Source of the DNA: Tetradesmus obliquus
Taxonomy: Eukaryota > Chlorophyta > Chlorophyceae > Sphaeropleales > Scenedesmaceae
Direction: 5' to 3'
DNA length: 64,000 nt
Assembly: GCA_030272155.1 (NCBI GenBank)
Contig: CP126206.1
Coordinates: 3,523,001-3,587,000, forward strand
Numbering within the stretch: position 1 is the first letter of the stretch; each line of letters begins with the position of its first letter. A program made the translations under genes and the position numbers. Below the pieces are notes generated by a model, which did no database searches, was not told the DNA's origin, and saw nothing but the letters and a program-made list of their open reading frames with translations. Positions 440 through 64,000 of the stretch are shown here, one piece after another.

Positions 440-3400
440 ATGCTTCGGCAGGGGAGCCAGGAGATTCCGGGCAGCTTCACGCCGCAATGGCTGCAGCAGA
501 GGCAGGGCCAGGCAGCGGCAGCTGGAGCCAGCCAGGACAAGCAGCAGCAGTCACAGGCCTCGCCCACAGCAGCAGCCCGGCGTGAGGAGAAGCCCTGGGT
601 GTCTGAGCGCTGGTCAACGGAGCGGGAGAAAGATGCGGACAGCAAATGGAGCCACGATCCTCCCTTTGACCGGCCTCGCTGGGGTGAAGATGAGCGTGAC
701 AGGGAGAGGCTGGTTCCCAGGCCCCAGCGCGAGCCTGGCAGGTGTGTTTCGGTGCCTTTGAATTGAATAATAACGTAGGAACACGTCTCAACGATCCATG
801 CTGCCGCAGGTGGAAGGCCAGCGAGTGGGGCAGTGGTACAGGCCAGGCCCGCGAGCCCTTTGCGCAGGGTGAGTTTCGGCGGGTCTGTACACTTTCATCG
901 ATATATTTGCTTCAATATACGCTGCACTGCTGACGCGGTGGTGCTGAGGCTGGGGTGGTTTGTGCTGCAGACCGCTGGGAGGGGCCCAGCAGCAGCCTGC
1001 TGGGGACTGGTCCCCCTCGTGATCGCTGGCGTAGTGAGGACAAAGCAGACAAGTGGGGCGGACCAAGTGAGTTGACGTGCAGCAGCAGCTCAGCATCACG
1101 CTCTCGGACAGCTGCAGAAGGGTGTCTGCGGCAATTGACAGCAGCAGCAGCAACTGCAGCAGCAGAGCGCGCAACACGCACATGTATGAACCTGCAAGCA
1201 GCAGATGCAACAATCAGCAGTGCTGTGCTCTGGCGGAGTCTTAGCAGCTGCGCTGGCAGCTGCTGTCACGTTGCAAGGGTGCTATCACAGCTGTGCTGGC
1301 AGCTGCTCTTATGTTGTAACAATTCATACATGCCGTTTATGTTGTGCATGCACTGCTGCTGCTGCTGCTGCTGGTGTTGCTGCTGCTGCTGCAGGGGGTG
1401 ACAGGCTGGATGTGCAGGAGCCGCCTAGCCAGTCGCGCATTGACCGCTGGAGGGCGCCAGGTGACCATCGGAAACTATCTACGTAGAATGTTTACTTGTA
1501 AAAGTTTTTACTTGTGTCATAGTACACATATCGTTCATGTCAATGATGATTGCAGGGTCGCAAAGTCTAGCAGGCAGCAGTGTTCTGCATGCCCGCTGCA
1601 GCTCAACTCAGCGGCAGAGTCCAATCGCGGTGGTACTGACTCTACTCATCAGACTTCTGCAAGCGCTCACCCCCCTTTCCTGCAAACTTTCCTGCAAGCA
1701 GGCGCGCGCACCAGCCTCGGCGAGGACCGCTTCGGGGAGCGCCCCGAGCGGCTGGGTGGTGGGCTGGGCAGCCGGGACAGCGGGGACTTTGGTGGGCCCA
1801 GCAGGACCAGCGTGGATGAGCGGGAGCGGGAGCGGGACAGGCTGGTGCCAAAAGGGCGCGGGTTTGGCTATGGGCGCGGGCGCGGCACAGGTGCGGCGGT
1901 GTATTTGTAAGTAGTATAACACCTTGCAGCTTATGGGTTGCTTCCTGCAAGCAGCTGTGCGCGTGCCGTGTGTGGTTGTTTCGTGTTATGTTTGTCGTGG
2001 GTGTGGGCGTGTACATGGCAGCCGTGACAGCGGGGACTTTGGTGGGCCCAGCAGGACCAGCGTGGATGAGCGGGAGCGGGAGCGGGACAGGCTGGTGCCA
2101 AAAGGGCGCGGCTTTGGCTATGGGCGCGGGCACGGCACAGGTGCGGCGACGTCTGTTTTGCAGATACTGCAGCATTTGGTGTGTTTCCTGCAAGCTGCTG
2201 GCTGTGCGTGTTGTCTGTTGCAAAGTGTAAGTTTGTTGTAATCGTGGGCGTGTGGTCGTTGTGGCAGCCGGGACAGCAAGTGCGTTGGTGTGTCCTGCAA
2301 GCAGCGGGAGCAGGAGCGGAGCGGGACAGGCTGGTGCCAAAAGGGCGCGGCTTTGGCTATGGCCGCGGCCGCGGCACAGGTGCGCACCCTGTAGCATTTG
2401 GCGTGTTTCCTGCAAGCTGCTGTGCGCGGGACGTGTGTTGTGCTTGTGCTTTGTGATTCTGTTGTGTGTTGTGCCGTGTGGTTGTTGTGGCAGCCGTGAC
2501 AGCGGGGACTTTGGTGGGCCCAGCAGGACCAGCGTGGACGAGCGGGAGCGGGAGCGAGACAGGCTGGTGCCGAAAGGGCGCGGCTTCGGCTATGGCCGCG
2601 GGCGCGGCACAGGTGCGGCGGTGTTAAGTATATCAAGTTGATCCTACGCCCTGCAGATGGCGGGGCTCCTGTAAGCTGTCGCCCCACGGCGCGTGTTGTG
2701 TCGTGGCAATGGGTGCGGGCGAGGCGCAGGTGGGCCTCCTGCCAGTGCTCTGGTGTGTTGTGCAAGCGGTCTGCGCTTCCTGCAAGGGCGTCTGTGTTTC
2801 CTGCAGACGTGGCCGCGCAGCTGTGTTGTTTTTTTGTCACTGGTTTGTGTCACTTGAAGAGCTATGTGTGCAATGTGTTCTGTCTCTGTCGCAGGTGCCG
2901 CGCTGGCGCCCGGCGCTTCCTTTAGAGCTGTGAAATCTGAGATATGATACTTACATGTGTGTGCATTTGCATTGTATGTTATGTCGGTGTCGCAGGCGCT
3001 GCGTTGGCGCCCGGCGCGTCTTCCTTTGACAGCTGGGCCAGCAAGGACCCCCTGGACGGCCCTGGCGGGCAAACTTTATCTCGGATCTGTCTCACCTGGT
3101 TTTACTGCACGTGTGTTATGTTCCGTAGGGGTCACAGGCGCTGCGCGGGCGCTCGCTGCTTTTTTGCTTCTAAACTTCAGAGAGGTTGCTCACATGTGTG
3201 TGCTCCTGCTTTTTAATGTTATTTCGGTTTTGTTGCAGGCGCTGCGCTGGCACCTGGCGCGTCATCCTTTGACAGCTGGGCCAGCAAGGACCCCCTGGAC
3301 GGCCCCGGCGGGCTGGGCGGCGGCAGCGGCAGCTACGGCCGCGCGCTCGGCGGGCTGGCGGCGGCTGGCGATCGCGGCGATCGCTACGGCAGCAGCAGCA

Positions 3401-4440
3401 GGGCCGGCCGCGAGGCTGAGCGGGAGCGCGAGCGGCGGCGCGCGATGCAGTACAGCAAGCAGCATCTGGAGGATCTGAAAGACATGATGATGTTTAAGCT
3501 GAAAGTGGAGGAGCTGCCGCTGCCGCGGGGGCTGACAATAGATGTGCTAGAGCACCTTTACAAAAAGGCGGCTGATGAGGAGGTGCACGAGGAGCATGAA
3601 AGCCGTGAGGCGCTGCCAGCTTGGGCAACCGAGCCGGTGCGGCCGCCTGGCGAAGCTGCTGCTGCTGCGCCGCCTGCTGCTGCAGCAGCAGCAGCACCTG
3701 CTGCGACTGCAGAGATACCAGCAGCTGCTGCGCCTGAGCAGGCAGCTGCGCCGCCGCCAGCAGCAGCAGCAGCAGCGCCGCAGCCTGCTGCAGCAGCGCT
3801 GCCGCCGCCGCCGGAGCTGCCACCTGGCATGCCGGCTGCTGCTCTGGAAGCTGACCAGTGGGTGTACCGGGATCCACATGGCTTAGAGCAGGGCGTGTTT
3901 ACAAAAGCAGAGATCCTGGATTGGTTTGAAGCAGCCTACTTCTCACCCGATCTGCCGCTGAGGTCTGCACTGCCAGGTCAGGAAGGGATCTGGACCCGCC
4001 TGGATGTCATGATCAGGGTTTGGGCCCTCACTGAGGCACACAGGGTTCAGCTGGTGCAGCAGAGCCACGCGGCAGCAGCAGCAGCAGCAGCAGGCGGGCC
4101 CGTGGTGGGCCTGTCAGATCTGACCGGCAGCGGTTCAGTGGACTCGCACCTGCCGCGGTTTAGGGAGGCTGCGTACGGCTCCAGCGGCGTCAACGCGTGG
4201 CTGCAGCAGCAGCACCCGCAGGAGCAGCAGCAGCAGCAGCAGCAGCATGCATTCCATCAGCAGCAGCAGCAGCCGTTTGCAGCACCTCTGCCGGGTGTGC
4301 CGCAGCCTGGCGCTGCAGGTGGTTGGGGAGCACCGGCAGCAGCAGCAGCAGCAGGTTACGGGCAGCAGCAGCCTGGCATGCCAGGTCAGCTGGTGGGCAC
4401 GCCGCCCACATCAGCAGGCCTGGTGGGCCCTGCAGCACAC

Positions 4441-4471
<31 letters not shown>

Positions 4472-5284
4472 TGTTTGCAGGAGCTGCGCCACTGCAGCAG
4501 CAGCAGCAGCAGCAGCGCACGCTGTTTGGTACCCCTCTGGAGCAGCCGGCTCCAGCAGCAGCAGCGTCAGCCCCTGTTGCAGCAGCAGCAGCAGCACCCA
4601 GCAGCACTGGCAGCAAGATGCTAGATCTGCTGTTCAACAGACGCCCAGCAGCAGAGGCTGTGCCGCAGCCTCAGCAGCAGCAGCAGCAGCAGCAGCAGCC
4701 AGCGCCAAATGCAGCTGCTGCAGCAGCAGATGCTACTGCGGGCGCATGGGAGACAGTACCCACCAAGGCTGCCAAGCAGGAGCGCCAGCAGCAGCAGCAG
4801 CACACGCGGCAGCAGCAGCAGCAGCAGCAGGAATCCGCCTGGCAGCAGCAGCAGCAGCGGCACGAGCCTGTTGTGCCACAGCAGCAGCAGCAGCAGCAGC
4901 TTCCAGAGGAGCGCCCTGCGCCCTCAGGCCCTGTTGTGATGCCGCTGTTCCCCCAAGCAGCAACAGCAGCAGCAAAGGCAGAGCCGCAAAAGCCAGCTCC
5001 CTGGGCAGCAGCAGCAGCAGCGCCAGCAGCAGCAGCACCAGCAGCAAAGTCCCTACGTGAGATCTTAGAAGAGGAGCAGGCACGAGCAGCAGAGGAAGCA
5101 GCGCGCGCAGAGGCGGCGGCAGCAGCAGCGGCAGCAGCAGCGCCGGCAGCAGCAGCAGCGCCGCTGCCACCTCCTGCAGCAGCAACAGCAGCAGCAGCAG
5201 GGGGTGCCAGCGCGTGGGGTAGGCCTGGGTCTGCTGGTGCTGCTGCTGCTGCCGGGGGTGTGCCCCCTGGCTGGGGTCCCAGCG

Positions 5285-5315
<31 letters not shown>

Positions 5316-5724
5316 GCCGCCGCTCATGCCTGTGGCAAGCGATGAGCTGTCGGCGCCTGTCAAGAAGGCAACGCTTGGGTGAGCACCTGCGCATTTCTTT
5401 GGCTCTATGCATTTGGAAACGTTGCCTTAATATCAGTCAGCGGTGTGCGGGTTTTCTGTTACCTGACAACAGCTGGATGGTCAAGTTAGGACTCTGTGCT
5501 GACTGGCTTGTGCTGCTGCTGCTGTCTGCAGGGAGATCCTGGCAGCAACGCATCCAGCACAGCAGCACCCTGCAACATTACAATCATTGACTTGTTCTCT
5601 TCTGCTGCTGCTGCTGCTGCTGCAGCAGGGAGATCCTGGCGGCGCGCTTGGGCAGCTCGGGGCGCACCGGCAGCAACGCGTCCAGCACAGCAGCACCCTG
5701 CAACATCACCCTCATTGACTTGTT

Positions 5725-5766
<42 letters not shown>

Positions 5767-5864: not shown

Positions 5865-5915
<51 letters not shown>

Positions 5916-6046: not shown

Positions 6047-9000
6047 AGGGAGATCCTGGCAGCTCGCCTGGGCAGCAGCGGGCGCACTGGCAGCAATGCA
6101 TCCAGCACAGCAGCAGCAGCAGCAGCAGCAGGGCCGTGGGGCTCAGCAGCAGTGCAGCGGCCGGCGGTGTCGCTGAACCACATCATGCAGGTGTGCATTG
6201 TTGTGCTGGAATCAATGTTGTTGATGTTAATTGTTGTTGACTAGGTTCTTGTTGAACAACAAGTGCATCCCACAACCTCAGACCATAACATGCACATGCG
6301 CTTTGCTGTGCTGTGCTGAGGGTGTGTCAGGGCACATGAAAGCACATGACAGCATCAGTTGACAACTGCATCTGCGTGTGTGTGCTGCTGCTGCTGCTGC
6401 TGCAGCAGGAGGAGATCGCTTGCGAAGAGACGCTCGCAGGCCTTGAGGGAGGCCAGGTGCAGGAGGAGGGCCTGGAGGACCTCATCGCTGCACTGCGCCA
6501 GCGCATCAATAACACTTTCAAACCTTTGGGTGCCTGTTTGGCCTGCGACGCCATGCAGGAGGAGGCCGCAAAGAAAAACACTGCTGGCGCACACACGAAC
6601 TCGTACTCAAGCAGTTGAGAGGAGATACTCCTTGTTGTCTGTCTCTGTTGTGCTGTTTCTGTTGCAGCAGGAGGAGATTGACCGCGAGGAAACACTTGCT
6701 GACCTTGAGGGAGGCCAGGTGCAGGAAGGGGGCCTCGAGGACTTGCTTGCTGCACTCTGCTGATGGGCTTGCTGCTGCTGTTGCTGCCGCTGCTGCTGCC
6801 GCTGCTGCAGGAGATTGACCGCAAAGAAACACACACTGCTGGTGAACACATGCGGTCGTTGCTTGAAATCGACATCTCAAAATACCATGTTTGGTGTCCT
6901 GTGTATACTGCTGCTGCTGCTGCAGCAGGAGGAGATCGACCGCGAGGAAACGCTTGCTGATCTTGAAGGAGGCCAGGTGCAGGAAGAGGGCCTCGAGGAC
7001 TTGATTGCTGCTCTGCGCCAGCGCAACAACAACGCAGCAGCAAGCCAGCAGCAGCAGCAGCGCCAGGCCTCCGGCGACGACGCCGGCCTCTTCTGGGACT
7101 ACTCCGGCAGCAGCAGCAGCAGGCCGGCGGCGGCTGCGCCGCCGCAGCCGGTGCCGCTGCCGCGGGCAGCGCTGGCAAATGCGGCGGCTGCTGCGCAGCC
7201 GCGCGCGGCGGCGCCGGCCGCGATCGCGCCGCCTGTTGTGGCGGGCCCGTGGGCGCGTGCCGCTACGAGTGGCGCGATCAAGGCGCCGCCGCCAGGCAGT
7301 GTACTGCAGCAGCAGCCGGCCATGCCAGGTCAGCGCAGCGCAGCAGCAGTGGTGGGCCGCACGCCGCCAGCCGTGCCTGGCGCCGTGTATGCTGCAGCGC
7401 CGATCGCTGGCAGCAGCAGCAGCGCGCGCCGGCCGGCTGCTGTTGCGCCGCCGCCGCCGGCTGCTAGTAACGGCGGTGGGCTGGACGATGCGATCGGCGT
7501 GCTGCCTGGTGGGCTGCAGCTGTCGGCGGGCTTTGCGGAGTGGTGCCGCGGGCAGATGCTACTGCTGAACGGCAATGACAGCATGGACATGATTGAGGTG
7601 CTGATGGGGCTCAGCAGCAACAGCGAGATTGCGGAGTGCTGCCAGGAGGTGTGGCAGAACAAGCCAGGTGCGTTTTTTCCCGTTGTTATACTGGTATGCT
7701 GTTCTCTTTTTTTTAGAACTTCTGAAAACCTTTAAAAGCAAAATAATGTGTGACTGATGCCAGTTTTCACCAGCATGAGTCACACAGTTTCTTGCTTTGA
7801 AAGACCTTTGGACATGAGTGAGGTGTTTATGGGGCTGAGCAGCAACACGCGAGATCACGCAGTGCTGCTAGGAGGTGTGGCAGAACACGCCAGGTGGGGG
7901 GATGTGTGACTGTCAGCCTCCCATATGTGTTTGTGTGTCCTTTGGCTCGTGGTCGTGCTTTGAAGTGTTATATGAATGCCGAGTGCTGCCAGGAGGTGTG
8001 GCACAACAAGCGAGGTGCGTGTTTGATACATCCCACAACCACGTTATGCGTTTTGTGACTGCTTGGACTTGACAGCATACTTATGGATGAGGTGTTGATT
8101 CGGCTGAGCACCACCTGGGTTTTCTGCAGCCCAAGCCGGCACCCTCATTTTAAATGTGCTGCTGCTCCCGCTGCTGCTGCTGCTGCTGCAGGTGTGACGA
8201 CGTTTGTGAGCGAGTTTGTGAAGCGCAAGCTGGCTATCCCATTCTCAAAATGCTGCTGCTGCTGCTGCTGCTGCCCTGCTCTGTCCTCACATGTAATGGA
8301 CGTGCAGGCGTGTCGACCTTTGTAAGTGAGTTTGTGAAGCGCAAGCTGGCGGAGCAGAACCGCAAGCCAGGCGGCAAGAAGAAGAAGGGAGCAGCAGCAG
8401 CAGCAGCAGTGCCGGCAGCAGCAGCGGCCAGCAGCGGCGTCAGCGCGGCTGGTGTCGGCATGATCAACACAGGTGAGGGGTTTGGGTGTTCAGGGTTTAA
8501 GGGTGCGAAGTTCTTGTGTTTTGTTTTGTTATGTTATGCTGTGTTAGGGCTTTGTGAGGGTTGGCCCAGGCTTGATCTGCGTTTCAGGTCACGCCTGGCT
8601 CAGCCCTTGTAACGCCCCAACAGGTGTTGAATTTAACAATGTGTTAAATTCTGGCACGGGCTGCATGTAATTAATGTAGCTTCAGCGTCAGTGCGGCTGG
8701 CGTCGGGATGATTAACACAGGTATCCAGAGTTGCGAGCTTTTGCTGCTTGTTTTTCCATGTTGTCGAAGGGCTGTGTAATGGGTTGAAGGGCATTGGCGG
8801 TTCGCGTCTCCATTCCAACATCTTCTGGGGATGTTCTCTGAATATTTTCACCCCCTTCCCCCTGGGTATGTTTAGGCGTTGTGAGGGTTGAACAGGTTGT
8901 TCTGTGGTACAGGTCACGCCTGGCTCAACCCTCACAAAACCCCAACAGGCGCCAAACGCTGTGTTACTTGCTGGCGCGGGCCGCTGTGTTACTTGCTGGC

Positions 9001-9510
9001 GCGGGCCGCTGTGTTACTTGCTGGCGCGGGCCGCTGTGTTACTTGCTGGCGCGGGCCGCTGTGTTACTTGCTGGCGCGGGCCGCTGTGTTACTTGCTGGC
9101 GCGGGCCGCTGTGTTACTTGCTGGCGCGACATGACGTGACTGTTGTGGTGTCAGCGGTGGTGGTCAGGTGGAGTTGGCGGTGGTCCCGGTTGTGGGCTGA
9201 ACAGGGGACTGTTGAGGCACTGGCAATGTGTCAGATGACATCTTAACGTTATTACGGAGGTTTACCCTGCAAGTTTCTGCAGGACGGGGGTTGCGAATGT
9301 CACCTGCGGCAGCCTGTCGGCAGAGCAGCGCAGCTGACCATGGGCTGAGTATGCGGCGCGTGCTAGGTCTGTGCCTCCCAAGAAACTGCATACAACATGC
9401 TGCTGGTGCAGCAGCAGCCGCCCCTGACTTCTGAGGCAAGATTCTTGAGAGCTTGGCAAGAAGGGCAAGATACATTTGCTTGCTTTGCTGTCTGACATCA
9501 AATACTCAAA

Positions 9511-15299: not shown

Positions 15300-15645
15300 G
15301 TGCACAGAACACCGCGTCCCAATCACCACCTACTGCAGCTGGCGCTGTTGGCAGCAGCCAGCTCCAGCACCAAATGCTGCTGCTGCCACATCGTTACTCA
15401 AACGCACAAAGCGCATTGCGCTGGTGGCACCACACACAATACCGCATTATGATGACACCGCATTATGGTAACGACTGAAACACCGCCTGCTGCTGCTAGC
15501 ACTGTCGGCCGGCAGCCAGCTCCAACACCAGCTGCTGCTGCTGCCTCAGCAACCTATGCAACTGCGCACAGAGCGGCGCACGTGGCGCAACACACACATC
15601 GCCGCCTGCTGCTGCTAGTGCTGTTGGCAGCAGCAAGCTGCCACC
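15300..15645 (-). repeat. Downstream copies of the S41 peptidase C-terminal coding end
   Basis: On the minus strand the Gln-rich end of the last exon (QLQHQ-type coding, stop at 15712) recurs at about 15310-15390, 15473-15545 and 15600-15642, beyond the stop codon. A TTGGCAGCAGC block on the plus strand marks most of the copies. Confidence 0.75.
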
Positions 15646-25840: not shown

Positions 25841-25935
25841 TGTGGGCATCGGGTGAAATGGGCATGCGAGCCTGCTTTACCATGGTGCTGCTCACGGTGG
25901 GCATCGGGCATGCAAGCCTGCTTCACCTGTCACTC
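25648..25935 (+). repeat. Membrane-anchor exon end copies and AGC microsatellite in the R-SNARE 3' flank
   Basis: Degenerate copies of the exon end lie at 25706-25770, about 25838-25856 and 25880-25908 (GGTGGGCATCGG blocks). They are separated by (AGC)n tracts at 25659-25684 and 25778-25837; the latter is about 20 uninterrupted units. Confidence 0.85.
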
Positions 25936-25943
25936 GGCAGGTA

Positions 25944-26164
25944 GATCTGCTGCGGCAGGCAATCTGCTGCGGCAGGCAATCTGCTGCGGCAGGTGATCTG
26001 CTGCGGCAGGTGATCTGCTGCGGCAGGCGATCTGGTGCGGCAGGCGATCTGCTGCGGCAGGCGATCTGCTGCGGCAGGCGATCTGCTGCAACAGGCGATC
26101 TGCTGCGGCAGGCGATCTGTTGCGGCAGGCGATCTGCTGCGGCAGGCGATCTGCTGCGACAGGC
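25944..26164 (+). repeat. 17-bp minisatellite, 13 copies
   Basis: Unit GATCTGCTGCGGCAGGC with single-base variants, exactly 13 units. Since 17 is not a multiple of three, all frames are sampled, which explains long spurious ORFs on both strands. Confidence 0.95.
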
Positions 26165-29340: not shown

Positions 29341-29500
29341 GTGGTACAGCACATACAACATGTGGTACAGCACATGCAACATGTGGTACAGCACATGCAA
29401 CATGTGGTACAACACATACAACATGTGGTGCATCACATGCAATATGTGGTACAGCACATGCAACATGTGGTACAGCACATGCCTGTGGTACAGCACATGT
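29341..29500. repeat. 21-bp minisatellite, seven to eight copies
   Basis: Unit starting GTGGTACAGCACATGCAACA, phase-locked at 29341, 29362, 29383, 29404, 29425, 29446 and 29467, with a shortened final unit. The 21-bp period keeps frames open on both strands. Confidence 0.93.
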
Positions 29501-51340: not shown

Positions 51341-51703
51341 CTAGCTCCGCTCCGCGCGTGGCGCCGCCCATTCCACGTGCAGGATGAGGTTGTCGTAGCC
51401 ATAGCCGTCCAGCGTGCGAATGGCACGCTCTGCATCCTCCCTGCAAACATGAAAGCAGAAAACAAAGCACACAGACGAGCACGTCAGAGGCAGGTGTACA
51501 TACGGCAGATGATGAGCACTGCCAACAGCAGCAGCAGCAGCAGATGGCGCGCTCCGCGTCTTCCTTGCAAGCACAACGTCATTACAGCAGCAGCAGCAGC
51601 AGCAGCGACAGAGGATGAGGAGGATGCACCACATGCAGGATGAGGTTGTCGTAGCCATAGCCGTGCAGCGTGCGCATGGCACGCTCTGCATCCTGCCTGT
51701 GAG

Positions 51704-51752
<49 letters not shown>

Positions 51753-51885
51753 GGATTAGGAGGATGCACCACGCGCAGGTTCATCTGGATGAAGTTGTCG
51801 TAGCCATAGCCGTCGAGCGTGTGAATGGCGCGCTCCGCATCCTCCCTGGTAACATAGATTTTTCAGAGTTTCTTGGCATGCCTGT

Positions 51886-51937
<52 letters not shown>

Positions 51938-54900
51938 TGTGGTGGTAGTTGACGAACACAAGTACAACACATCAGCTGCATGCGCACTACACCTCTGGCC
52001 GCTGCATGTGAAGTGTCAACTTTGTCGCACCTGTGGTGGTAGTTGACGAAGGCGAAGCCGCGGTTCTCTCCCATGGTGCGGTCCACCGCACGCGCACTAC
52101 ACTGTCAACCCTTACTCTCTACACCCCTGGCCGCATGTGAAGTGCGTCACCCAAAGCATGACAGCGCACCTGTGGTGGTTGTTGACACCGCCAACGCAAG
52201 TAGCACACACCGGCAGCACACACACTATTGACCCCAACCCTGGCACTACACCCCTGGCCGCTGCATGTGAAGCACAAAAAGGAATCGCACCTGTGGTGGT
52301 AGTTGACGAACGCGAAGCCGCGGTTCTCTCCCGTGGTGCGGTCCACCGCACGCGCTCTACACTGCGAACCCTTACTCTCGATACCCCTGGCCGCATGTTA
52401 AGTGCGTCACCCGAACCATGACAGCGCACCTGTGGTGGTAGTTGCCATACGCAAGTAGAACACACGGGCAGCACGCACACTGAACCCCAACCCTGGCACT
52501 ACACCCCTGGCCGCTGCATGTGAAGCATCATAACTTTGTCGCACCTGTGGTGGTAGTTGACGAAGGCGAAGCCGCGGTTCTCTCCCGTGGTGCGGTCCAC
52601 CGCCAGGAACACGCGGCTGATGGGGCCAAAGGGCCGGAACAGCTCCTGCATGTTTTAAATTCAAACTTTGAAGTTCAGTAAGTACTTGGATGAGGAACAT
52701 GTTTCTCAACAAGGAACACGCGGCTGATGGGGGCAAAGGGCCTGAACAGCTCCTGCAGGCAGGCAGTTCATGAGAACATGAGGTTCAGTGGGGAGTATAG
52801 TGGGGAACTGTGTTTTATTGGAGGGAATGCCAGGAACACGCGGCTGATGGGGCCAAAGGGCCGGAACAGCTCCTGCATGTTTCAAATTCAAAGTTTGAAG
52901 TTCAGTAAGTACTTGGATGAGGAACATTGTTCTGATTGAAGAACACGCGGCTGATGGGGCCAAAGGGCCGGAACAGCTCCTGCAGGCAGGCAGGCAAGTT
53001 GACACAAGTCATGAGAACATAAGGTTCAGTGGGGAGTTCAGTGGGGAGCTTTGTTTTGTTTGTTTTATTGGACAAAGGAATGCCAGGAACACGCGGCTGA
53101 TGGGGCCAAAGGGCCGGAACAGCTCCTGCATGTTTTAAAATTACGCGGTTCAGAAGGAATTTCGGCGGGAAACTTTGTCAAGATTGGGGAGGACAAGCGC
53201 AGTGGGAATAGCCAGGAACAGGAACATGCGGCTGATGGGGCCAAAGGGCCGGAACAGCTCCTGCAGGCAGTTTGATATTTTGAAGCGTTTTAAAGTTGAA
53301 AATTTAGGAAAGATGTTTGAGTGATGAACAGCTCAGTGGGCACAGAGAGCAAGTAAAAGACACCCACACAGCCGAAAGAGCCGACAGCATCACCCATCTC
53401 TGCCTGATGAGCGTCTGATCATCCCAAGCAGGGCTGCACGATGGTTCCTGCTGACACTCAACTTTGTCATTTTTACAATCGAGGAAAATACTAACCTGCA
53501 GGTCGCCCTCTGTGACGTCCTCAGACAGGTTGGTGACGCGCACGCTGTTCTCATCACGCTGCCGCCGCCCGTCGCCGCCAGCGCCCTCCATGCTTGCGCC
53601 GGGGCCCCTGCAGCAGAAGATAACACACCATAACAGAAGTTAGAAAGCTTATGAAAACCAAACAGTGGTTGGCGACGCGCACGCTGTCCTCGTCACGCTG
53701 CCGCCGCCCGTCGCCGCCAGCGCCCTCCATGCTCGCGCCGCAGCCCCTACAGCAGAAGATAATATTCACATGACAGCGCTCAGAACATGACAGCGCTTAG
53801 CGTATGATAAAAAATAATGAGATTAATATGGTGACGCGCACGCTGTTCTCGTCGCGCTGCCGCCGCCCGTCGCCGCCCGCGCCCTCCATGCTCGCGCCGG
53901 GGCCCCTGCAAGCACGAGAAAGACAGCATAACATATGTTCTTTCAGGCATTTAAGAACTACTTGATAGCTTGAAGGCTGATGGACTCTTTGGAAACTACC
54001 TGCTGCTTGTCACAACCGGTGCGCTGAAGGCAGCCCTGCAGGCTTGGGCCCCGCTGGGCCATCCTCTTCAGGCGGCTTCTCTGCCTCTGCTGCTAAAAGC
54101 TTGCTTAAAATATGCAAAAAAACCTAACTTCAACTCAAAAGCGTACATAAGTAGTACATTTCCTTGTGGTTGAAGCGCTGCTAGTTGTTACAACCGCTCT
54201 TACCTGTTGCGCACGCTTGGTGGCACGTAGCTGCCGGGCTTGGGTGCTGAAGGCAGCCCCGCAGGCTTGGGCCCCGCTGGCCCATCCCCCTCTTCGGGCG
54301 GCTTCTCTGCCTCTGCCAGCAGGCCCTTGGCACGCAGCAGCTCGCGCTCCATGCGCTTTTTGTACAGCACGTCCTTCAAGCTGTTATAACGAGCGTTATA
54401 ACACAGCAGCAGCGGGCGGTGCAGAGATCAGGTGCCGGTGGGCAGCACTGGCGCAACAAACAGAGCTTGACAAGCAAGTTGATGATTTCAAATCGGCCTC
54501 TGCCAGCACTCCCTTGGCACGCAGCAGCTCACGCTCCATGCGCTTTTTGTACAGCACGTCCTTCAAGCTGTTATAACGAGCATTATGACACGGCGGCAGC
54601 GGCAGGTGCCACAGCCGGCAGTGGATTGATGTCAGCTGACGGCACTGGCACGACTAGTACCTGCGCAACCTGGTCTGCACAAGCCTGCGCAGCTGCCACT
54701 GGTGCCAGTGCTGATACATCTCTATACATGTTTGATGTTTGTGAGCAGAGCCACGCGCCTGCCCACAATGGTCTGCTTGTCTGCGCCCTGCAGGGCCACC
54801 TGCATCTCTGGCAGCAAGGTGTGTGTACTACTGCTGCTGGTGCATTCAATTAGATTGTTGACAGTGACATTGCAGCTTGCATGTTGGCATTGAACATCAT

Positions 54901-56896
54901 CGCCACATCCGCCGTCCATCGCAATGGTTGGTGAAATGTTTGTGTGAGAGCCACGCACCTGCCCACGATGGTCTGCTTGTCTGCGCTCTGCAGCGCTGCC
55001 TGCATGTCGGTGAACTTCTTCTCCTGTGCAGTGGCCTTTGCGGGCCTGATGCGCTCAAAGGGAATGTCCTCCACGTGCCGTACTGCAGGCAGTACAAAGT
55101 CACAGCAGGCAGTACACATCAGAAGGCAGTACACAGCAGCATGTCTGTGGACTTCTTCTCCTGTGCAGTGGCCTTGGCCGGCCTGATGCACTCAAAGGGA
55201 ATGTCCTCCACATGCCGTACTGCAGGCAGTGAGATGACAGAGCAGAGTCACATGGCAGTACATAATCACATAGCTACATGACGCGCTGGAAGGGAAGGTC
55301 TATGTGCCGTACTGCACGCGGCAGAATAGCACGCAACCGCACATATCTGCTGTCAGCGCACGGCACAGGACTGCTGCTCGCAACAACACTGTTGCTGGTG
55401 ATCTGCACAGCTGCTTCAGATACAAGCCTGCGGAGCAGCTCTGCTACTGGAAACACTAATACACAATGCTGCTTCTCCTGTGCCACTGCTTTAGCTCTGC
55501 TGCTGCTGCTGCTGCTGCTGCTGCTTGCTGTTGATCAGGTTGATGGTGCTGGCTATGCATGCCCAGCTGCAAGCCATACAATGAGCACCGCCCACCCGCA
55601 CACTGTGCTAGCTATAAACAAGCATTGCACGTTCTAGCAACACTGGCCCACGGAACAGCAGTGCATGACCATCCCCTGCCCAGTGTGCAGTACCCTTCAT
55701 ACTGCTTATATATCCTGCCCCCTTGCACAACAGCTGTGCCTGCCATGATGGCCGCTGCCGCGTGTATCTGTGCTGCCTCTGCTGCTGCTGTCACTGTGCA
55801 TGTGAACATGACGTGAAGAAGAAAACGACATCCAACACCAGCTGCTGACAGCGCAACCAGCACACCGCGTGCAGCTATGAGCACAATATACGAATATGTT
55901 GTACATCTGGCCTCTGCTGCTCCATGCTGTCTCCTTTGCTGAGGCGTTGAGTTGCTGATACACTGCCACAAACAAAGCACTGCTACTGCTGAGCACACAC
56001 CACGGGAACCAAGCACAGCCCACCTGTCACGCTGTCGTCTGCGACCGCTCTGCTAAACAGACAGGTGGCCAACAGATGTGCCACAACTACAGCAGCACAT
56101 AGCTACACGCAGCCTACCTGTCACGCTGTCGTCTGCTGACTCCTTTGCTGAACGCAAAGTACCATTGCCGCACATACAGCGCAAGGACAGAACCACATGC
56201 CTTAGCAGCACAAGGAGACCCACCTGTCACGCTGTCATCTGCTGACTCCTTTGCTGCCAGGCCAAAGCGCTTCCACTGCTTGCGCTCCGCAGTGACCTGC
56301 AGCAGCAGCAGAAGCAGCAGCGGCAGCAGCAACGGTACATTGGTTCGAACTCCGCACACGACAGCAGGCACCTGCGATGCTCCGCCTGCAAGTGCGCTGT
56401 GAGGTGTCGATCATACAAACATGGCTGCTGTCATTTGACGAAGTGCTGCTTCTACCCAAAGAATGCACACAGAATGTGCATTGCAAGCTATGTAACCTTG
56501 CAGCTGTCGCTGAAGAAAACGCCATGCGCTACTGCTGCCAGTGCTGCTACTGCAGTAGCACTGCCCTGGCAGCAGCAGGCAGCAGCTGCGTGCCATGGTG
56601 ACAGCACACACTTCTTCATATAGCCTCTACATATACTTAGACAGCGTGTTACGATGTAAGCAGGCTTGCATGCCCGAATGCCTGAACCTGCTGCTTCAGT
56701 CGCCCACCTTGTAAACCTTCTGCTCTACGTTCACCACCTTGACCTTGGTAACCTTTTTAATGGCTTCTCCCTTATCGTTTTTGTAATACTCTGTTGTGAT
56801 TTTGATGCCGTGCGAGTCCGGGCCCTTCACTGTGGAAGGCGGCAGCGCATCCTCATCATCCAGCGTGTCTCCCCATCTGATCTTTGATTTGATCAT
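51341..56896 (-). CDS. EIF3G: Translation initiation factor eIF3 subunit g, 7 exons, 291 aa
   Basis: Exons 56896-56708, 56296-56224, 55082-54959, 54380-54204, 53607-53496, 52645-52545, 51440-51341; phases close at 291 aa, near the usual eIF3g size. The N-terminus (IRWGDTLDDEDALPP, ITTEYYKNDKGEAIKKVTKV) matches the eIF3g family, which binds other eIF3 subunits. A Lys/Glu helix and a PGSYVPPSVR linker follow. The C-terminal RRM has VRVTNLSEDVTEGDLQELFR, RNP1 RGFAFVNY (about 249-256) and a DGYGYDNLILHVEWAAP end. In 40S-bound eIF3 it promotes scanning and reinitiation. The CCHC zinc knuckle expected before LKDVLYKKR is missing from these exons; either it is lost or a small exon lies in 54381-54958. 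Met 56896 was chosen over an in-frame Met 14 codons upstream. Confidence 0.93.
51535..51860 (-). repeat. Three upstream copies of eIF3g exon 7 start
   Basis: Copies of the EDAERAIRTLDGYGYDNLI start lie at about 51540-51572, 51637-51697 and 51783-51847, separated by sense CTG tracts. The complete exon starts at 51440. Confidence 0.9.
51935..52545 (-). repeat. Downstream copies of eIF3g exon 6 end (RNP1 region)
   Basis: Good copies of the TTGENRGFAFVNYHHR end lie at 52290-52345 and 52030-52090. Short donor-side copies (GTGGTGGTAGTTG on the plus strand) lie at 51938, 52171 and 52430. Intergap sequence (CCCCTGGCCGC) is repeated too. Confidence 0.88.
52705..53270 (-). repeat. Five upstream copies of eIF3g exon 6 start
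   Basis: Copies encoding ELFRPFGPISRVF begin (in sense) at about 52756, 52877, 52985, 53127 and 53266, ahead of the complete exon at 52645. One copy (52756) has APISRV. Spacers between copies also repeat. Confidence 0.93.
53660..56150 (-). repeat. Other exon-fragment copies in eIF3g introns
   Basis: Exon 5 starts: 53668-53755 and 53829-53910. Exon 4 end: 54022-54095; exon 4 start: 54500-54570. Exon 3 end: 54757-54815; exon 3 starts: 55148-55222 and 55276-55318. Exon 2 ends (KESADDSVTG region): 56024-56060 and 56115-56152. All follow the outward polarity. Confidence 0.85.
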
Positions 56897-57300: not shown

Positions 57301-60300
57301 ATGGCTGACAAACGAAACTACGTGCCACTTAACGTGAAGACGTACAGGGAGGGCTTTCTCCGACTGCAAGGATGGACTGTCTTCTCCTGCATAGCTTTCT
57401 TCACGGCCGGTCTGCTGGTTCTTTACGAGGTGAACACATGCATAACCTGGTCTAAACATTACAGCGTAGCACAGTGCTGCTGACAGCGCATTCCAGCATA
57501 GGTATCATCTCAGGCAGTCAGGCCACAACTCCTCAAAGGGCCTGATGCACCTGCCAGCTATCACATGCTCATGGACACACGCAGGCAGAACCTTGCACAT
57601 ACTGACACAGATGCATATGACTTCACTGTATGCTCCTGTCGCAGCTGCTGGTGATAAATGTTGAAGATCAGGACTTCAGGGACATGCTGTTCGACTACAG
57701 AGTAACACGCCCAGGCATAGAGTGAGTGCGTGCTGCGTATGCTGCCAGCCAGAAGTTGCTCACGTTTCTCACCGTGCTGGCTGGCAGCCATTTTTTGATG
57801 CAGTGCATAGCAAGCACCTGCACCATAGCTGCGGCAGCTCAGAGTCCTTTGATGCAGCTGCGCACAGCCTGGGCTCTGCTGCTTGCATGGCACGAGCCAG
57901 AGGTTTTAGGTGTCTTCAAGACATACACAAAGAAAGTTGCTGAACGTGCCGGCTGGCAGCAACTGTTTGTTGCAGAGCTTAGCAAGCACCTCCACCCCAG
58001 CGTTGGCGGCAAAGGGGCCCTTGGGCAGCTGCCCTTGGCTAGCCAGCGCTACGCACAGCCTGGGGTATGCTGTTTGAATGGCCTAAGCCAACAGTTCAGG
58101 CACCTTCAGGCCATATACACAAACCTTCCGGCCATATACAAACCTGTAGTTTATAAACAAACATTCAGGCCATACACAAAGACAGCGGCAGCCGAGGATG
58201 TCACCGCTTCAATCCTACATGCACCTAACGTGTTGCCTGATTGCCATGCATCATGACCCTACCCCTCCTTACCCAGTTGCAGCCACCAGCACAAGCACTT
58301 TATCAGAAGCCACCACTGCTGCCACCACGACACAGCAGCTGCAGTAGAACTACTCATACTGACAAGCACCTGATGTGCTGCCGCTGCTGTGCCCATGGTC
58401 ATCTGCATCTTCCTACAGCCACCAGCACAAGCACTTTGTCAGCGGCCACTACTGCTGCCACCAGGACACAGCAGTGCACAGCTACAGCTGCCCCCGGCCG
58501 CCCAGCAACTTTTCGGCCTATTGGGGAAGCGACTCGCCGCCCTGCCCGCCTACTGTTCAGTTCACATGCCCGGACTTGACATCCAGCGGCTGCAACAAAG
58601 TGAGTAGGAGTTATGTTCAGTTACAGTAATAGAAAAGCAGCTGGCTCGGCAGCTAGTGCTGTGGAGCAACAGCAGTTCGTGCAGCATCAGCAGCAGCAGC
58701 AGCAGCAGCAGTTGAAGGTAGTTGTCTTCACGCCAGAAATCATGCACTCTATGCTATGCAGGTGCACGCTGCAGTGTACCCTGCGGCAGGCCTGGTGGGA
58801 GCATTCAAACGCCTTCATGATATAGCTAATGTATAACATGCACTCTATGCTATGCAGGTGCGGGCCGCAGTGTACCCAGCAGCAGGCCTGGATCCCTCAA
58901 CTGGCCATGCGGCCAACTGCAGCAGAGCAGGGCGTGTGCTGCTGCGGGCGCGGGCAGGGTCAGGCTATCGGCTGACTGCCAGTGTGCATGGCTCGCAGCT
59001 ATCTCAGCAGCTGGTGCTGAGTCCCAACAGGTGAGCACAAAAAAGTGGCAATGCATGAGCAGAGCATGCCGTACACATGTAGGGTGGCTACCAGTGTGCA
59101 TGGCTCGCAGCTGTCCCAACAGCTAGTGCTGGATCCCAACAGGTGAGAAGAGAAGGCGGCAATGCATAAGCATGCCGTAGGGTGGCTGCCAATGTGCATG
59201 GCTCGCAGCTGTCCCAATAGCTGCTGCTGGATCCCAAAAGGTGAGAAGAGAAGGCGGCAATGCATAAGCATGCCGCAGGGTGGCTGCCAATGTGCATGGC
59301 TCGCAGCTGTCTCAGCAGCTGGTGCTGGACCCCAACAGGTAAAAATTGGCATGACCAGCAACACGTGGGCAGCACTGCATGAGCATCATGAGCAGTTGCT
59401 GAAAAGCCCGAATGGCTGCCTACATATATGCAGCAGACGGTTGTGACGCTATGCAGGCGTCACTGACACTGCTGCTGCATCGCTGCTGCTGCTGCTGCTG
59501 GCTGCTTGCAGCATTGACACAGGCCAAGTCGACGCGTTCCTGGCGCAAGTGGCTGCCGCTCACAGCGATCCAATGTTCCTGCTACCCAGGTGAGCAGCGG
59601 CAGCGGGAGAGGATTGCCTGAGAGCTGTGGCCCTGGCCATGGCTTGAACACCCGCCAACCCTCACTTTCAGCAAAAACTGCATTACCCACAATGTTCTAA
59701 ATGTGCACCTTGTCTGTCCGTGCCATTTGCCCACGCAGTGAGCCGCTAGGCAGGTCGTTGCGGCTGGGTGATGCGCTGGTGCCGCTGCAAGCAGCGCTGA
59801 CTGACCCCAGTGGAGATAAGTTTGGCGAGTTTGGCTGGCCCTGGGAGCTGTGGCCTTGGCCGCCGCTCAAAAACCCGGTCAATCTTACTCTAAATCTCAC
59901 AGAAAATTGCACAGGCAACTATGTGTCAAATGCACGCACACACTGTTGGCGGTCCTCATTTGCCTGTCGTCTGCTGTGTGTGCCTGCTTATGCAGTGAAC
60001 CGCTGGGCAGGTCGCTGCGGCTGAGTGGCGCGCTGGTGCTGCTGCAGCCGCAGATGCAGGACCCTCACCACAACAGCACTCTCTAATCCTCATCCGTTTG
60101 TTTCTCACTGGCCTCCTCCCCTATTGCCTGCTTATGCAGTGAGCCGCTAGGCAGGCCGCTGCGGCTAGGTGGCGCGCTGGTGCCGCTGCAAGCAGCGCTG
60201 ACTGACCCCAGTGGCAACAAGTGGGGCGAGTTTGGCTGGCCCTGGGAGATGTGGCCCTGGCCGCCGCTCAAAATCCCGGTCAATCTTACTCTCAATCTAA

Positions 60301-63300
60301 AAAAAATGTACAGGCAACTATGTGTCAAATGCACGCACACACTGCTGGCGGTCCTCATTTGCATGTCGCCTCTGTGTCCGCTTGCCCGTGCAGTGAACCA
60401 CTTGGCAGGTCGCTGCGGCTGGGTGGTGCGCTGGTGCCGCTGCAGCGCTGACTGACCCCAGTGGAGACAAGTGGGGCGAGTTTGGCTGGCCCTGGGAGAT
60501 GTGGCCCTAGGCCCCGCTTACTCACCCTTACTGACTTGATCAGACAGCAAGCTGTATACCAAGCACTACGCCTTTATGATTTTGAAAGTGGGTGTGCTTC
60601 CTTTCTGCATGTTGTCCTGTCTTGCCCTGGTACAATGCAGTGAGCCGCTAGGCAGGTCGCTGCGGCTAGGTGGTGCGCTGGTGCCGCTGCAAGCAGCCTT
60701 AACTGACCCCAGCGGGGACAAGTTTGGAGAGTTTGGCTGGCCTTGGGAGCTGTGGCCTTGGCCGCCCAGTGCATCTTGCAGCAACACAGGCATGCCAGCA
60801 AGCCTGCGCCTAGAAGGTATGGTAGAATTCAACATGTGGGGTGGCACAGTCAGCCATGCGTGTTGCGCAGCAGTGACTGGCTCAATACATTCTCAAATAG
60901 TTTGGCTGGCCCTGGGAGCGGTCGGCCTGGCTGCCCAGTGCATCCTGCAGCAACACAGGCACGCCTGTTGCACTGCGCCTAGGAGGTGCGGTAAGAGTAG
61001 GGCCTGTAGACTTTTACAAGGGGTTGTATGGGTAGTTTAGTGTACCGCCACAACATGGGGACAAGTTCGGAGTTATTGGCTGGCCCTGGGAGCTGTGGCC
61101 TTGGCCGCCCAGTGCATCTTGCAGCAACACCGGCACGCCGGCACGCCTGCGGCTGGAAGGTGCGATATGTGCATGTTGTCCTGGCTGGCGTGGACTGGCT
61201 GCGTGCGGCACAGCCATGTTTTTGGCACCTGCATATCTTGTTGATTGTGCATCGTGCAACAACACCGGCACACCTGCGGATTTGCGACTGGAAGGTGCGG
61301 TGAGAGTAGGGCGAGTAGATGTTTGCAAGGGGTTCCATGGCGCCCATGCATAGTTTCAGTGTATCGCCACAGCATGGAAGACAAGTTTGGCGAGTTTGGC
61401 TGGCCCCGGGAGTTGTGGCCCTGGCCGCCCAGTGCATCCTGCAGCAACACAGGCACGCCTGCACGCCTGCGGTTGCAAGGTACGGTGGGGTTGTACATGT
61501 GGGGTGCGCACAGTGTGCAGTGCATGGTGCGCAGCAGTGACTGGGTTGAGTTTATGTTTGGCTGGCCCTGGGAGCTGTGGCCTTGGCCGCCCAGTGCATC
61601 TTGCAGCAACACACGGACACCCGCAAGCCTGCTCCTAGGAGGTGCGGTAAGAGTAGGGCCTGTAAACTTTTACAAGGGGTTGTATGGGTAGTTTAGTGTA
61701 CCGCCACAACATGGGGACAAGTTCGGAGTTATTGGCTGACCCTGGGAGCTGTGGCCTTGGCCGCCCAGTGCATCTTGCAGCAACACCGGCACGCCGGCAC
61801 GCCTGCGGCTGGAAGGTGCGATATGTGCATGATGTTTTGACTAGCATGGACTGGCTGCGTGCGGCACAGCGCTATTGCGGTGTTGCTCTCAGCATCTGCT
61901 TGGCACTTGCATGTCTTGTTGGTTTTGGTTGTCGCGCAAAGACAAGTTTGGCGAGTTTCGCTGGCCCTGGGAGCTATGGCCTTGGCCGCCCAGTGCATCT
62001 TGCAGCAACACAAGCACGCCAGCAAGCCTGCGCCTAGAAGGTATGGTGTGTAACTTTGTGCCGGATGCGGTTTAGGTTTGTGCATAAGGCTTGAAGCCGC
62101 TTTTGTTGAGTAACCTCCTAAGATGGAAGCAAAGTGTGCATAAGAGCTGTGGCCATGGCCTCCGAGCGCATCCTGCAGCAACACAGGGACACCTGCTGCA
62201 CTGCGGCTGGAAGGTGCGGTGCGAGTAGGGCGTGTACATGTTTGTCAACGGGTTTATGGGGCTTGGCGTCCCCGCTTAGCTGCGTGCTGCTGCCCGCTGT
62301 TGCGCTGCGGGCAGCGTCACAGCGCACTTTGCTGTATGTGACCCCACCAAATCATACTGTTGGCAGCAGCAACCACCTTCAGATTGATGACGTGGCTGCG
62401 TGCTGCCGCCCGCTGTTGTGCTGCAGGCAGCGTCAAGGCGCACTTCGCTGTGTTTGATCAAAGCAAGCCTGCATACATTTGGAAGCAACAAGGCCACTTC
62501 AAATGATGATGTGGCTGCGTGCTGCCGCCCTCTTTGCGCCGCAGGCAGCATCAAGGCTCGCTTTGCTGTATGTGACCTGCCAAACTATACTGTTGGCAGC
62601 AGCAACCACTTTCAGATCAATGACGTGGCTGCGTGCTGTTCTCTGCAGGCAGCATCAAGGCGCACTTTGCCGCCTTTGATCCAAGCAAGCTTACATAATT
62701 TTGGCAGCAGCAGCCGCTTACCTTTAACTGACCTGGCTGCATACTTTTCGCCATTTTGCATCGCAGGCAGCATCAAGGCGCACTTTGCTGCTTTTGATCC
62801 AAGCAAGCCCCTGCCACACTTCCCCGTTGCCTTTCTCGGCAGCGCCCTGTCAGTGCCGCAGTATCAGCGGCAGCTGCTGCCAGCTCAACAGCAGCAGCAG
62901 CAGGGAGCAGGAGCCGGTGCTATTGCCTTGGCAGCTGGGGTAGCACGGGGAGTTGCGGATGGCAATGCTACAGTAGTAGTGTCGGCCTTAACTGGCATCA
63001 ACATGTCGGTGAGTGCAATTCTTCCGCTCATTGTTGGCAGCACTGCTGCTTTACCATGTGAGCACAGCAGGGACAGATGAGGATGGCGATGCTACGGTAG
63101 TGGTCTCTGCCTTGACAGGCATCAACATGTCGGTGAGTGCTCCAGTCGGCGCTCAAGATTGCTTTCAAAAGAGCGATCACTCTCTCTTCTTGCACCTGCT
63201 GCACATTCGTCATGATGGGGGTTGGAGCCGCTTGAGTTCATTCTGTCAAACATACATTGGCCCGAACACTGTCCCAGCTTCGGCCATTGTAACAAGACCT

Positions 63301-64000
63301 TGGTTGCGCTGCTGCTGCTGCTGCTGCTGTGCAGGTTGGCCTACACTGCTGCCTCAGCTGGGCGCCTGCCGCGCATGGCAGCTGCACCCGCCCCTCACAC
63401 ATGACGCAACCAGAACACAAACCCCAAACTCATGTGCGCTGCTGCTTTGCAGGTGGGCTTGCTGCTGCAGCTGGGCGCCTTCAGGGCCTGGCAGCTGCAC
63501 CGCCCCTCTCATCACAATTCAACACAACGCAATTTGTGCTGCTGCTGCTGCTGCTGCTGCTGCCGCCGTAGGTTGGGCTGCTGCCGCAGTTAGGAGGCTG
63601 CCGGGCCTGGCAGCTGCACCGGCCAGGCCTGAGCCTTGAGTGCAACACAAATATGTAAATTGATGCGTGCTGCTTGCAGGTGGGTCTGCTGCCTCAGCTG
63701 GGCGCCTGCCGCGCCTGGCAGCTGCACCGGTGTGACATAAAAGTGTGACATAATTATGTAACTGATGTGCACTGCTGCTCTGCAGGTGGGTCTGCTGCCT
63801 CAGCTGGGCGCCTGCCGCGCCTGGCAGCTGCACCGGTGTGACATAAAAGTGTGACATAATTATGTAACTGATGTGCACTGCTGCTCTGCAGGTGGGCCTG
63901 CTGCCTCAGCTGGGCGCCTGCCGCGCCTGGCAGCTGCACCGGCCAGGCCTGTGCCTTGAGTACGGCAGGGAGCTGTGGAGGGGCAGCGTGGCGGAGCTGG
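57301..64000 (+). CDS. Unrecognised single-pass membrane protein with Cys-rich ectodomain (partial, runs off the window)
   Basis: Exons 57301-57429, 57645-57721, 58419-58599, 58858-59030, 59512-59589, 60641-60816, 62767-63008, 63892 to beyond 64000; phases agree at every junction, giving at least 388 aa. A short charged N-terminus (MADKRNYVPLNVKTYREGF) precedes one hydrophobic segment (about residues 25-41), suggesting a signal anchor. The following part has paired cysteines (HYCCHQD, SYSCPRPP, SPPCPP, FTCPD, SSGC), potential N-glycosylation sites (NFS, NCS, NAT, NMS) and an unusual GWPWELWPWPP motif. I recognise no family. The Cys and N-x-S/T pattern suggests a lumenal or extracellular domain (inference). 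Exons 3, 4, 6, 7 and 8 have flanking copies; exon 1 does not. Confidence 0.7.
58270..59340 (+). repeat. Copies flanking exons 3 and 4 of the unknown gene
   Basis: Exon 3 start copy at 58270-58332. Exon 4 start copy at 58761-58800. Exon 4 end copies at 59091-59141, 59187-59240 and 59283-59338 (VHGSQLSQQLVL coding, each with a GTGAG or GTAAA donor). The last three have a period near 97 bp. Confidence 0.9.
59738..60515 (+). repeat. Four upstream copies of unknown-gene exon 6 start
   Basis: Copies beginning TGAGCCGCTAGGCAGG or similar lie at 59739, about 59995, 60140 and 60394; the complete exon starts at 60641. They extend 60-140 bp into the exon and share an intron block (AATCTTACTCTAAATCT type) between copies. 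Confidence 0.92.
60890..62220 (+). repeat. Eight downstream copies of unknown-gene exon 6 end
   Basis: Copies of the GWPWELWPWPPSASCSNTG end plus GTGCGGT or similar donor lie at about 60899-60989, 61074-61162, 61245-61301, 61390-61481, 61557-61644, 61734-61820, 61952-62042 and 62140-62217. Confidence 0.93.
62300..63135 (+). repeat. Copies flanking unknown-gene exon 7
   Basis: Start copies (GSIKAHFA coding) lie at about 62308-62345, 62426-62460, 62543-62580 and 62649-62692. An end copy (VVVSALTGINMS plus GTGAGTGC donor) lies at 63074-63140. The complete exon is 62767-63008. Confidence 0.9.
63330..63891 (+). repeat. Five upstream copies of unknown-gene exon 8 start
   Basis: Copies of the LLPQLGACRAWQLHR coding start lie at about 63333, 63452, 63571, 63680 and 63786, ahead of the exon at 63892. 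The last two full units (63677 and 63783) are identical over 106 bp. Confidence 0.93.

Follow-up and report, generated by a model that had tools for sequence, protein, structure and literature searches.

Polarised exon-edge fragments are common in the introns of sampled Tetradesmus obliquus genes and may be maintained by exchange with the working exon

Introns of the green alga Tetradesmus obliquus can carry partial copies of the neighbouring exon, and we describe these copies starting from a 64,000-nucleotide stretch of DNA, hereafter the window (C16:3523001-3587000 of an assembly of 104.66 Mb in 17 contigs). Comparison of the window with itself by BLASTN, with low-complexity sequence masked, gave 191 direct repeat pairs against 4 inverted ones, with 190 of the 191 direct pairs less than 3 kb apart; two Markov-shuffled controls gave no local repeats. 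A preliminary description, made from the sequence letters alone, held that in all eight genes of the window, on both strands, copies of the beginning of an exon (start fragments) lie only upstream of the complete exon and copies of its end (end fragments) only downstream. Local direct repeats do cover 12-69% of every 8-kb block of the window, eight in all, and reference-protein models cover and confirm two of those eight genes, one on each strand: eIF3g (minus) and a gene here called w57 (57630-64000, plus). Exons were placed with our own spliced protein-to-DNA aligner, guided by proteins from T. obliquus or its relatives (P0242 for eIF3g; for w57, P0281, which is the T. obliquus protein UniProt A0A383WL10), and fragments were called by BLASTN of each gene against itself and projected onto the exons. 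Unsupervised gene finding by codon usage was dropped because it settled on GC- and repeat-rich frames. The eIF3g locus, with exons from spliced alignment to P0242 and fragments with their identity to the exon, reads as follows in the order of transcription.

56708..56896, minus strand: exon 1, coding part
56224..56296, minus strand: exon 2
56024..56150, minus strand: two exon 2 end fragments, downstream (56118-56150, 56024-56054), identity 0.97 and 0.84
55139..55219, minus strand: exon 3 start fragment, upstream, 81 of 124 bp, identity 0.93
54959..55082, minus strand: exon 3
54759..54808, minus strand: exon 3 end fragment, downstream, identity 0.88
54493..54567, minus strand: exon 4 start fragment, upstream, identity 0.95
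54204..54380, minus strand: exon 4
54023..54090, minus strand: exon 4 internal fragment, downstream, ending 42 nt short of the exon end; the sole exception among 119 fragments
53667..53905, minus strand: two exon 5 start fragments, upstream (53829-53905, 53667-53746), identity 0.95 and 0.93
53496..53607, minus strand: exon 5
52712..53260, minus strand: five exon 6 start fragments (53219-53260, 53082-53125, 52941-52979, 52829-52872, 52712-52752), identity 0.95-1.00
52545..52645, minus strand: exon 6
51937..52349, minus strand: three exon 6 end fragments, downstream (52291-52349, 52031-52089, 51937-51956), identity 0.98-1.00
51629..51845, minus strand: two exon 7 start fragments, upstream (51787-51845, 51629-51696), identity 0.92 and 0.94
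51347..51440, minus strand: exon 7, the last coding exon

The w57 locus, modelled in the same way on P0281, is cut by the end of the window.

57630..57721, plus strand: exon 1 of w57, a relative of UniProt A0A383WL10
58283..58343, plus strand: exon 2 start fragment, upstream, identity 0.90
58419..58599, plus strand: exon 2
58762..58795, plus strand: exon 3 start fragment, upstream, identity 0.85
58858..59030, plus strand: exon 3
59082..59338, plus strand: three exon 3 end fragments, downstream (59082-59142, 59180-59240, 59278-59338), period 98, identity 0.82-0.89
59512..59589, plus strand: exon 4
59739..60506, plus strand: four exon 5 start fragments, upstream (59739-59864, 59996-60046, 60140-60265, 60394-60506), identity 0.85-0.91
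60641..60816, plus strand: exon 5
60899..62213, plus strand: downstream array of seven exon 5 end fragments, identity 0.79-0.94
62427..62690, plus strand: three exon 6 start fragments, upstream, identity 0.88-0.95
62767..63008, plus strand: exon 6
63066..63132, plus strand: exon 6 end fragment, downstream, identity 0.82
63335..63836, plus strand: upstream array of five exon 7 start fragments spaced 106-119 bp apart, identity 0.86-0.98
63892..63999, plus strand: exon 7, truncated by the window end

The w57 product matches P0281 at about 82-93% identity in most exon matches (55% in one low-complexity piece), a level of divergence in sequence that suggests a paralogue or a divergent strain; P0281 itself carries, close to its C-terminus, a long stretch that is repeated.

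Five chaperonin genes on other chromosomes were modelled alongside these two (guides P0003 for CCT4, P0150 for CCT2, P0128 for CCT3, P0131 for CCT7 and P0121 for CCT5). The modelled CCT2, CCT3 and CCT7 match annotated T. obliquus proteins exactly; the CCT5 guide is distant, and the modelled CCT5 exons 10-12 are doubtful. At that place (C12) several close copies of one exon region confused the model, and the region, which may be a dense array, was excluded, removing 2 of 78 chaperonin fragments, both of conforming polarity. Six more rows from the same region had already dropped out at the filtering stage, which discards rows that fall on modelled exons or repeat a row already retained; with this poor model their labels were, for example, complete, internal or overlapping, probably because copies had been modelled as exons. 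In none of the other six genes did the filters discard a row.

Across the seven genes, 119 intronic exon fragments were placed, and counting against the spliced models bore out the claimed polarity: all 60 start fragments lie upstream of their exon and all 58 end fragments downstream, none is complete and none lies on the wrong side. The wording 'without exception' has to yield to the one internal fragment in eIF3g. By gene, eIF3g contributes 18 fragments (11 start upstream, 6 end downstream and the internal one), w57 contributes 25 (14 start upstream, 11 end downstream), and the five chaperonin genes contributed 78, all polarised, or 76 (35 start, 41 end) after the CCT5 exclusion. Nine further clear cases, seen from hidden Markov model (HMM) coordinates alone, are all start copies upstream of the exon (chaperonin on C16, 2; HSP70 on C17, 2; HSP70 on C13, 2; kinesin on C2, 3); they were picked by eye, and ambiguous overlaps such as those of the kinesins on C6 and C5 were not counted. 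Because the fragments group into 57 edge arrays plus the internal one, the 118 polarised fragments are not 118 independent events. Moreover, polarity is close to a geometric necessity once a duplication spans an exon boundary, and is therefore weaker evidence for a special rule than the preliminary description had held.

The spacing is regular and bears out the usual 100-250 bp given in that description: the fragment nearest to an exon is at least 85 bp away (median 128 bp), with at least 48 bp of intron between the two, and successive fragments are a median of 124 bp apart. At least one fragment accompanies 44 of the 80 exons and 56 of the 146 splice edges, which is what 'most exons' comes to. 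Among the modelled genes the median intron is 622 bp with fragments (n = 42) and 314 bp without (n = 34). One end fragment of CCT3 exon 14 (C17 locus) spans the stop codon, that is, the end of the coding sequence and not a splice site, so such duplications are not confined to introns.

The impression of a genome-wide pattern drew support from the five chaperonin genes on other chromosomes and was limited by stretches that have no local repeat pair. Local repeats occur in 11 of the 12 chaperonin stretches tabulated, out of 15 retrieved, and in three of five arbitrary stretches taken at base 1000001 of C1, C5, C6, C7 and C10 (13-28% covered); no local repeat pair was found at the chaperonin locus L040 (C2, matching CCT zeta) or in the arbitrary stretches L054 and L057, both of which contain open frames of more than 400 aa. 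The absence of local repeats at L040, together with only 5 fragments in CCT7 (L045), indicates large variation from gene to gene. Polarised exon-edge arrays are thus common, but not universal, in the sampled T. obliquus genes.

A test that used no reference proteins (window positions 1-50000 and eight other loci; strand-wise pair counts, n = 327) placed shared donor-like motifs at the right-hand end of the repeats in 36 of 327 and within them in 14 of 327, with a less clear result for acceptor motifs (100 of 327 and 84 of 327). At the oriented chaperonin loci on C16 and C14 the donor-like motifs were confined to the coding strand (14 of 56, against 0 of 54 on the opposite strand); at the oriented loci on C8, C4 and C11 together they were not (2 of 20 and 3 of 20).

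What the arrays preserve is the exon edge and not the duplicated unit. When identity is profiled by position across 60 start and 57 end fragments, it holds at about 0.9 in the exon up to the junction, the AG/GT dinucleotides reach 0.96-0.97, and similarity falls away within about 8 nt of the splice site; 9-40 nt out, flank identity is 0.378 for start fragments (null 0.264) and 0.296 for end fragments (null 0.253). Alignments extend 8 nt or less past the edge in 39 of the 76 chaperonin fragments and 53 of all 119, and under a strict threshold an exon-like intron flank is detectable in only 22 of the 76. A gapped test, restricted to the expected unit length, judged against composition-matched shuffles and kinder to plain duplication, found 45 of 117 flanks homologous at p ≤ 0.01 (48 of 117 in a rerun with new shuffles); the remaining 72 lean toward similarity, 51 of them at p ≤ 0.5, which argues that these flanks are homologues in decay. 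Contiguous units of exon plus intron are present at CCT4 exon 10 and eIF3g exon 6, the latter with alternating flank types, and CCT3 exon 4 has hierarchical units. A minisatellite (VNTR) would have head-to-tail units alike over their full length; a few recent arrays do form true tandem repeats of this sort (for example, 59079-59340 in w57), but in most units clear likeness is limited to the exon part. Repeated tandem duplication across exon boundaries, as claimed in the preliminary description, is consequently well supported as the origin of the arrays.

Whether such duplication, followed by neutral decay with nothing to maintain the exon parts, is the whole story is a separate matter. It would account for the polarity (by geometry) and for the regular spacing, and it is consistent with young units whose exon and flank are similarly alike, such as that of CCT2 exon 10 at -117 bp (0.98 and 0.95). 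However, under it the two parts of a unit, exon and intron, should diverge in step and duplications of intron alone should be frequent, and neither was found. Identity drops in a step at the splice site and exon identity is uncorrelated with flank identity (Spearman 0.06, p 0.49): 20 of the 26 fragments with exon identity ≥0.95 have an ungapped flank identity below 0.4, and exon identity is 0.914 with a homologous flank and 0.903 without (p 0.21). Within the eIF3g exon 6 start array the fragments at offsets -227 and -334 have unlike flank types and are both 100% identical to the exon over at least 39 bp; the flank of the 39-bp fragment at -334 is not significantly exon-like (p 0.18). Five genes have 117 local repeat pairs: an exon takes part in 83, two fragments are paired in 31 and just 3 are intron-only, so that 114 of 117 involve an exon or a fragment, even though 26476 of the 39120 bp of these genes (68%) are other intron. 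As a complete account plain duplication is accordingly unlikely: the origin is a known type of event at an unusual scale, and plain duplication leaves the maintenance of the exon parts unexplained.

The differences between fragments and exons bear on the same question. Mismatches fall 125, 107 and 347 times at codon positions 1, 2 and 3, and in nonsynonymous differences the outgroups agree with the exon 165 times and with the fragment 14 times (43 mixed); 22 of 119 fragments have frame-shifting gaps and three changed codons are stops. Judged from sequence comparison, it appears mostly to be the fragments, and not the exons, that are the non-coding copies. The nonsynonymous fraction, 0.42 (confidence interval by array 0.34-0.51), is nevertheless below the 0.58 expected for neutral fragments (our own arithmetic from 0.73, with transitions weighted twofold and the exon alone constrained), which indicates that the fragments are partly sheltered and is a further point against unassisted decay; the fraction is 0.49 (0.39-0.58) with a homologous flank and 0.39 (0.29-0.49) without.

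The explanation that we favour, with a probability of roughly 0.5, is an exon-anchored concerted evolution of tandem-duplicated exon edges, in which exchange and selection together would maintain the exon parts. A segment of about 100-150 bp across a splice site is duplicated in tandem, often repeatedly and hierarchically, and this step is well supported. By geometry, a copy could work only if the remainder of the exon adjoins it, which would leave start copies upstream and end copies downstream, and duplications of a whole exon or of its middle would alter the mRNA and be purged. The intron part of each unit then drifts towards being unrecognisable; the exon part stays at about 90% and usually keeps its AG or GT, as the profile shows. 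Finally, exon parts would exchange with the working exon, by gene conversion or by unequal exchange between short direct repeats. As the one copy that selection holds fixed, the working exon would donate the same sequence again and again; exchanges bringing a damaged edge and splice signal into it would be removed, and the intron parts would have no such anchor. What an exchange brings into the working position, the exon part with its splice signal, is the same part that stays alike. Splicing would presumably ignore the fragments, the nearest acceptor-donor pair around the exon winning, as exon definition suggests, and the fragments do nearly always lie on the side of the exon where splicing can ignore them. 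Somewhat more tentatively, at less than even odds, short exon-edge repeats may, by recombining very often with the working exon, have its purifying selection exported to them as nearby non-coding copies, and so form a self-perpetuating class that has expanded introns genome-wide.

The signs of exchange are indirect and mixed; they include the two fully identical eIF3g exon 6 fragments with unlike flanks. Run on 15 arrays, 6 of which had at least three informative sites, an exchange test found an excess of incompatible site pairs over tree simulations in three of the six (P = 0.003, 0.017 and 0.037). Several points weigh against the exchange that we propose. The test was non-significant in the other three informative arrays (P = 0.07, 0.157 and 1.0), and where it was positive, its signal could also arise from synonymous sites that mutated more than once. 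Identity is no lower farther from the exon (Spearman -0.11, p 0.25), does not increase with fragment length and shows no gradient from the splice site to the inner end of the fragment (p 0.45), and effects of distance, length or gradient are in part expected under simple recombination models. With gaps allowed, 8 of the 14 fragments with identity ≥0.97 have a homologous flank, so plain recent duplication accounts for some of the set. Direct selection on the fragments could explain the low nonsynonymous fraction equally well.

This last possibility, that the fragments are themselves functional (for example as decoys for splicing, as sites bound by splicing factors or as cassette exons used now and then) and that direct purifying selection acts on the exon part and its splice signal, is about as improbable as plain duplication. 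AG or GT is retained in 69 of the 76 chaperonin fragments, the end array of CCT4 exon 11 has 1 nonsynonymous and 38 synonymous differences, and the overall nonsynonymous fraction fits too, as does the inclusion of fragments in some T. obliquus protein models. However, the inner ends of the same 76 fragments carry no excess of splice signals (GT in 16 of 35, null 16; AG in 15 of 41, null 22), the frame-shifting gaps and the excess of nonsynonymous changes on the fragment side also speak against it, and 90 of the 146 edges have no fragment at all. Proteins of relatives (P0003, P0130 and P0242), which to judge by their short contigs and accession style probably derive from transcripts, lack the inserts.

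The protein models in question are instructive in their own right. In P0001 (T. obliquus CCT4, locus L039) a 7-residue start fragment is included as an exon; an 18-residue end fragment is the difference between P0125 and P0128, two CCT3 models that share the name OEZ86_007080; P0129 has a repeated start-fragment peptide plus extra residues after it; and fragment peptides occur in the CCT3 models P0123, P0125 and P0129 (C17 locus, L051, L052). The peptide of the CCT3 exon 4 end fragment has T in P0123 (UniProt A0A383V980) and I in P0125, and, read by eye, it is the fragment at offset +758 that corresponds to the I form. The annotated proteins show that gene finders stumble over the fragments.

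Exon-limited copying, in which a repair or RNA-linked process would copy an exon edge and a few bases into the adjacent intron without its flank, would explain the short reach of the alignments past the edge, the near absence of intron-only repeats and the independence of exon and flank identity. We consider it very unlikely because residual homology persists in the flanks, including the lean of the non-significant set, because some arrays consist of clear tandem units and because the retained AG and GT would be absent from a copy of spliced mRNA. Short tandem copies can in principle be mis-assembled, but an assembly artefact deserves hardly any credence, given that the units differ by about 10% and that the same CCT3 fragment peptide, with its one residue changed, recurs in P0125 and in P0123, which seems to come from an independent assembly.

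Other candidates were rejected or judged unlikely, and a cross between divergent haplotypes was also considered as a possible source of the differences. Cassette or mutually exclusive tandem exons were rejected for the lack of complete copies and of splice signals at the inner ends. Copies of spliced mRNA were judged unlikely because the fragments keep AG or GT and the intron consensus, though no dedicated search for exon-exon junctions was made. AGGT-type intron gain does not describe the fragments, 118 of 119 of which include the exon edge. Introner-like or otherwise dispersed mobile repeats are ruled out by the closeness of the direct pairs in the window and by a single fragment searched in the whole assembly, which matched at least 10 places, all within its own gene region, and so does not belong to a dispersed repeat family.

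The closest precedent is a tandem duplication in the potato RdRp gene, where the duplicated segment takes in the 3' end of one intron together with the beginning of the following exon, described as one event in one gene (PMC4974935). There too a partial exon copy adjoins the full exon, but in the potato gene the copy is described as spliced, adding an exon and a new intron (PMC4974935); in T. obliquus, by contrast, 56 edges in seven genes are affected, often by arrays and on both sides of the exon, the flanks are mostly decayed and the inner splice signals show no excess. In the Rogers model, where tandem duplication of an exon segment containing AGGT gives rise to an intron (cited in PMC4974935), and in Drosophila near intron pairs, described as a reshaping of exon-intron structure by tandem duplication (PMC2891723), exonic sequence likewise becomes spliced out; the duplicated segment there is exonic and yields a new intron, whereas in T. 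obliquus it takes in a splice site already present and makes the intron there longer. Dscam shares local tandem exon-derived repeats with splice sites, but its copies are whole alternative exons with mutually exclusive splicing, unlike the incomplete fragments found here. Exchange is described in a review of gene conversion as limiting divergence between duplicates, with selection shaping the outcome (PMC3924837); between them, this review and the Drosophila work touch on both parts of the favoured explanation. Concerted evolution by gene conversion is usually described for whole genes and long repeats; the partners proposed here are, in contrast, exon edges of 20-160 bp lying 85-1400 bp from the constrained copy. 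We recognised no genome-scale description of the pattern in the open-licence PMC literature, judged mostly by titles and the starts of abstracts, and the novelty is provisional because subscription literature lay outside the search.

If the arrays are genome-wide, they would constitute a route of intron growth, as the longer introns with fragments indicate; mean intron length is given as 462 bp in T. obliquus and 230-302 bp in four other green algae (PMC5966456). They also offer a natural test of how the spliceosome chooses among near-identical acceptors or donors in one intron, the main difference between them being position relative to the exon. If the favoured reading is true, non-coding DNA would be preserved through exchange with a constrained neighbour and could be mistaken for functional sequence. 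In practical terms, algal biotechnology makes wide use of T. obliquus, whose predicted proteins can include repeated peptides that are spurious; the fragment peptides in P0001, P0123, P0125 and P0129 argue that public T. obliquus proteomes may hold many spurious in-frame repeats.

Other features of the window lie apart from the exon-edge arrays. A scan of the window against Rfam gave no family at the gathering score. Ordinary minisatellites with periods of 25, 17 and 21 occur at 8957-9128, 25935-26164 and 29340-29499, and CAG/CTG tracts are numerous. Three of the four inverted matches join 15330-15639 to 26772-26843, possibly a short dispersed repeat. At 3217-5382 there is a 721-codon open frame, rich in Gln and Ala, that looks by eye to contain a GYF-type domain.

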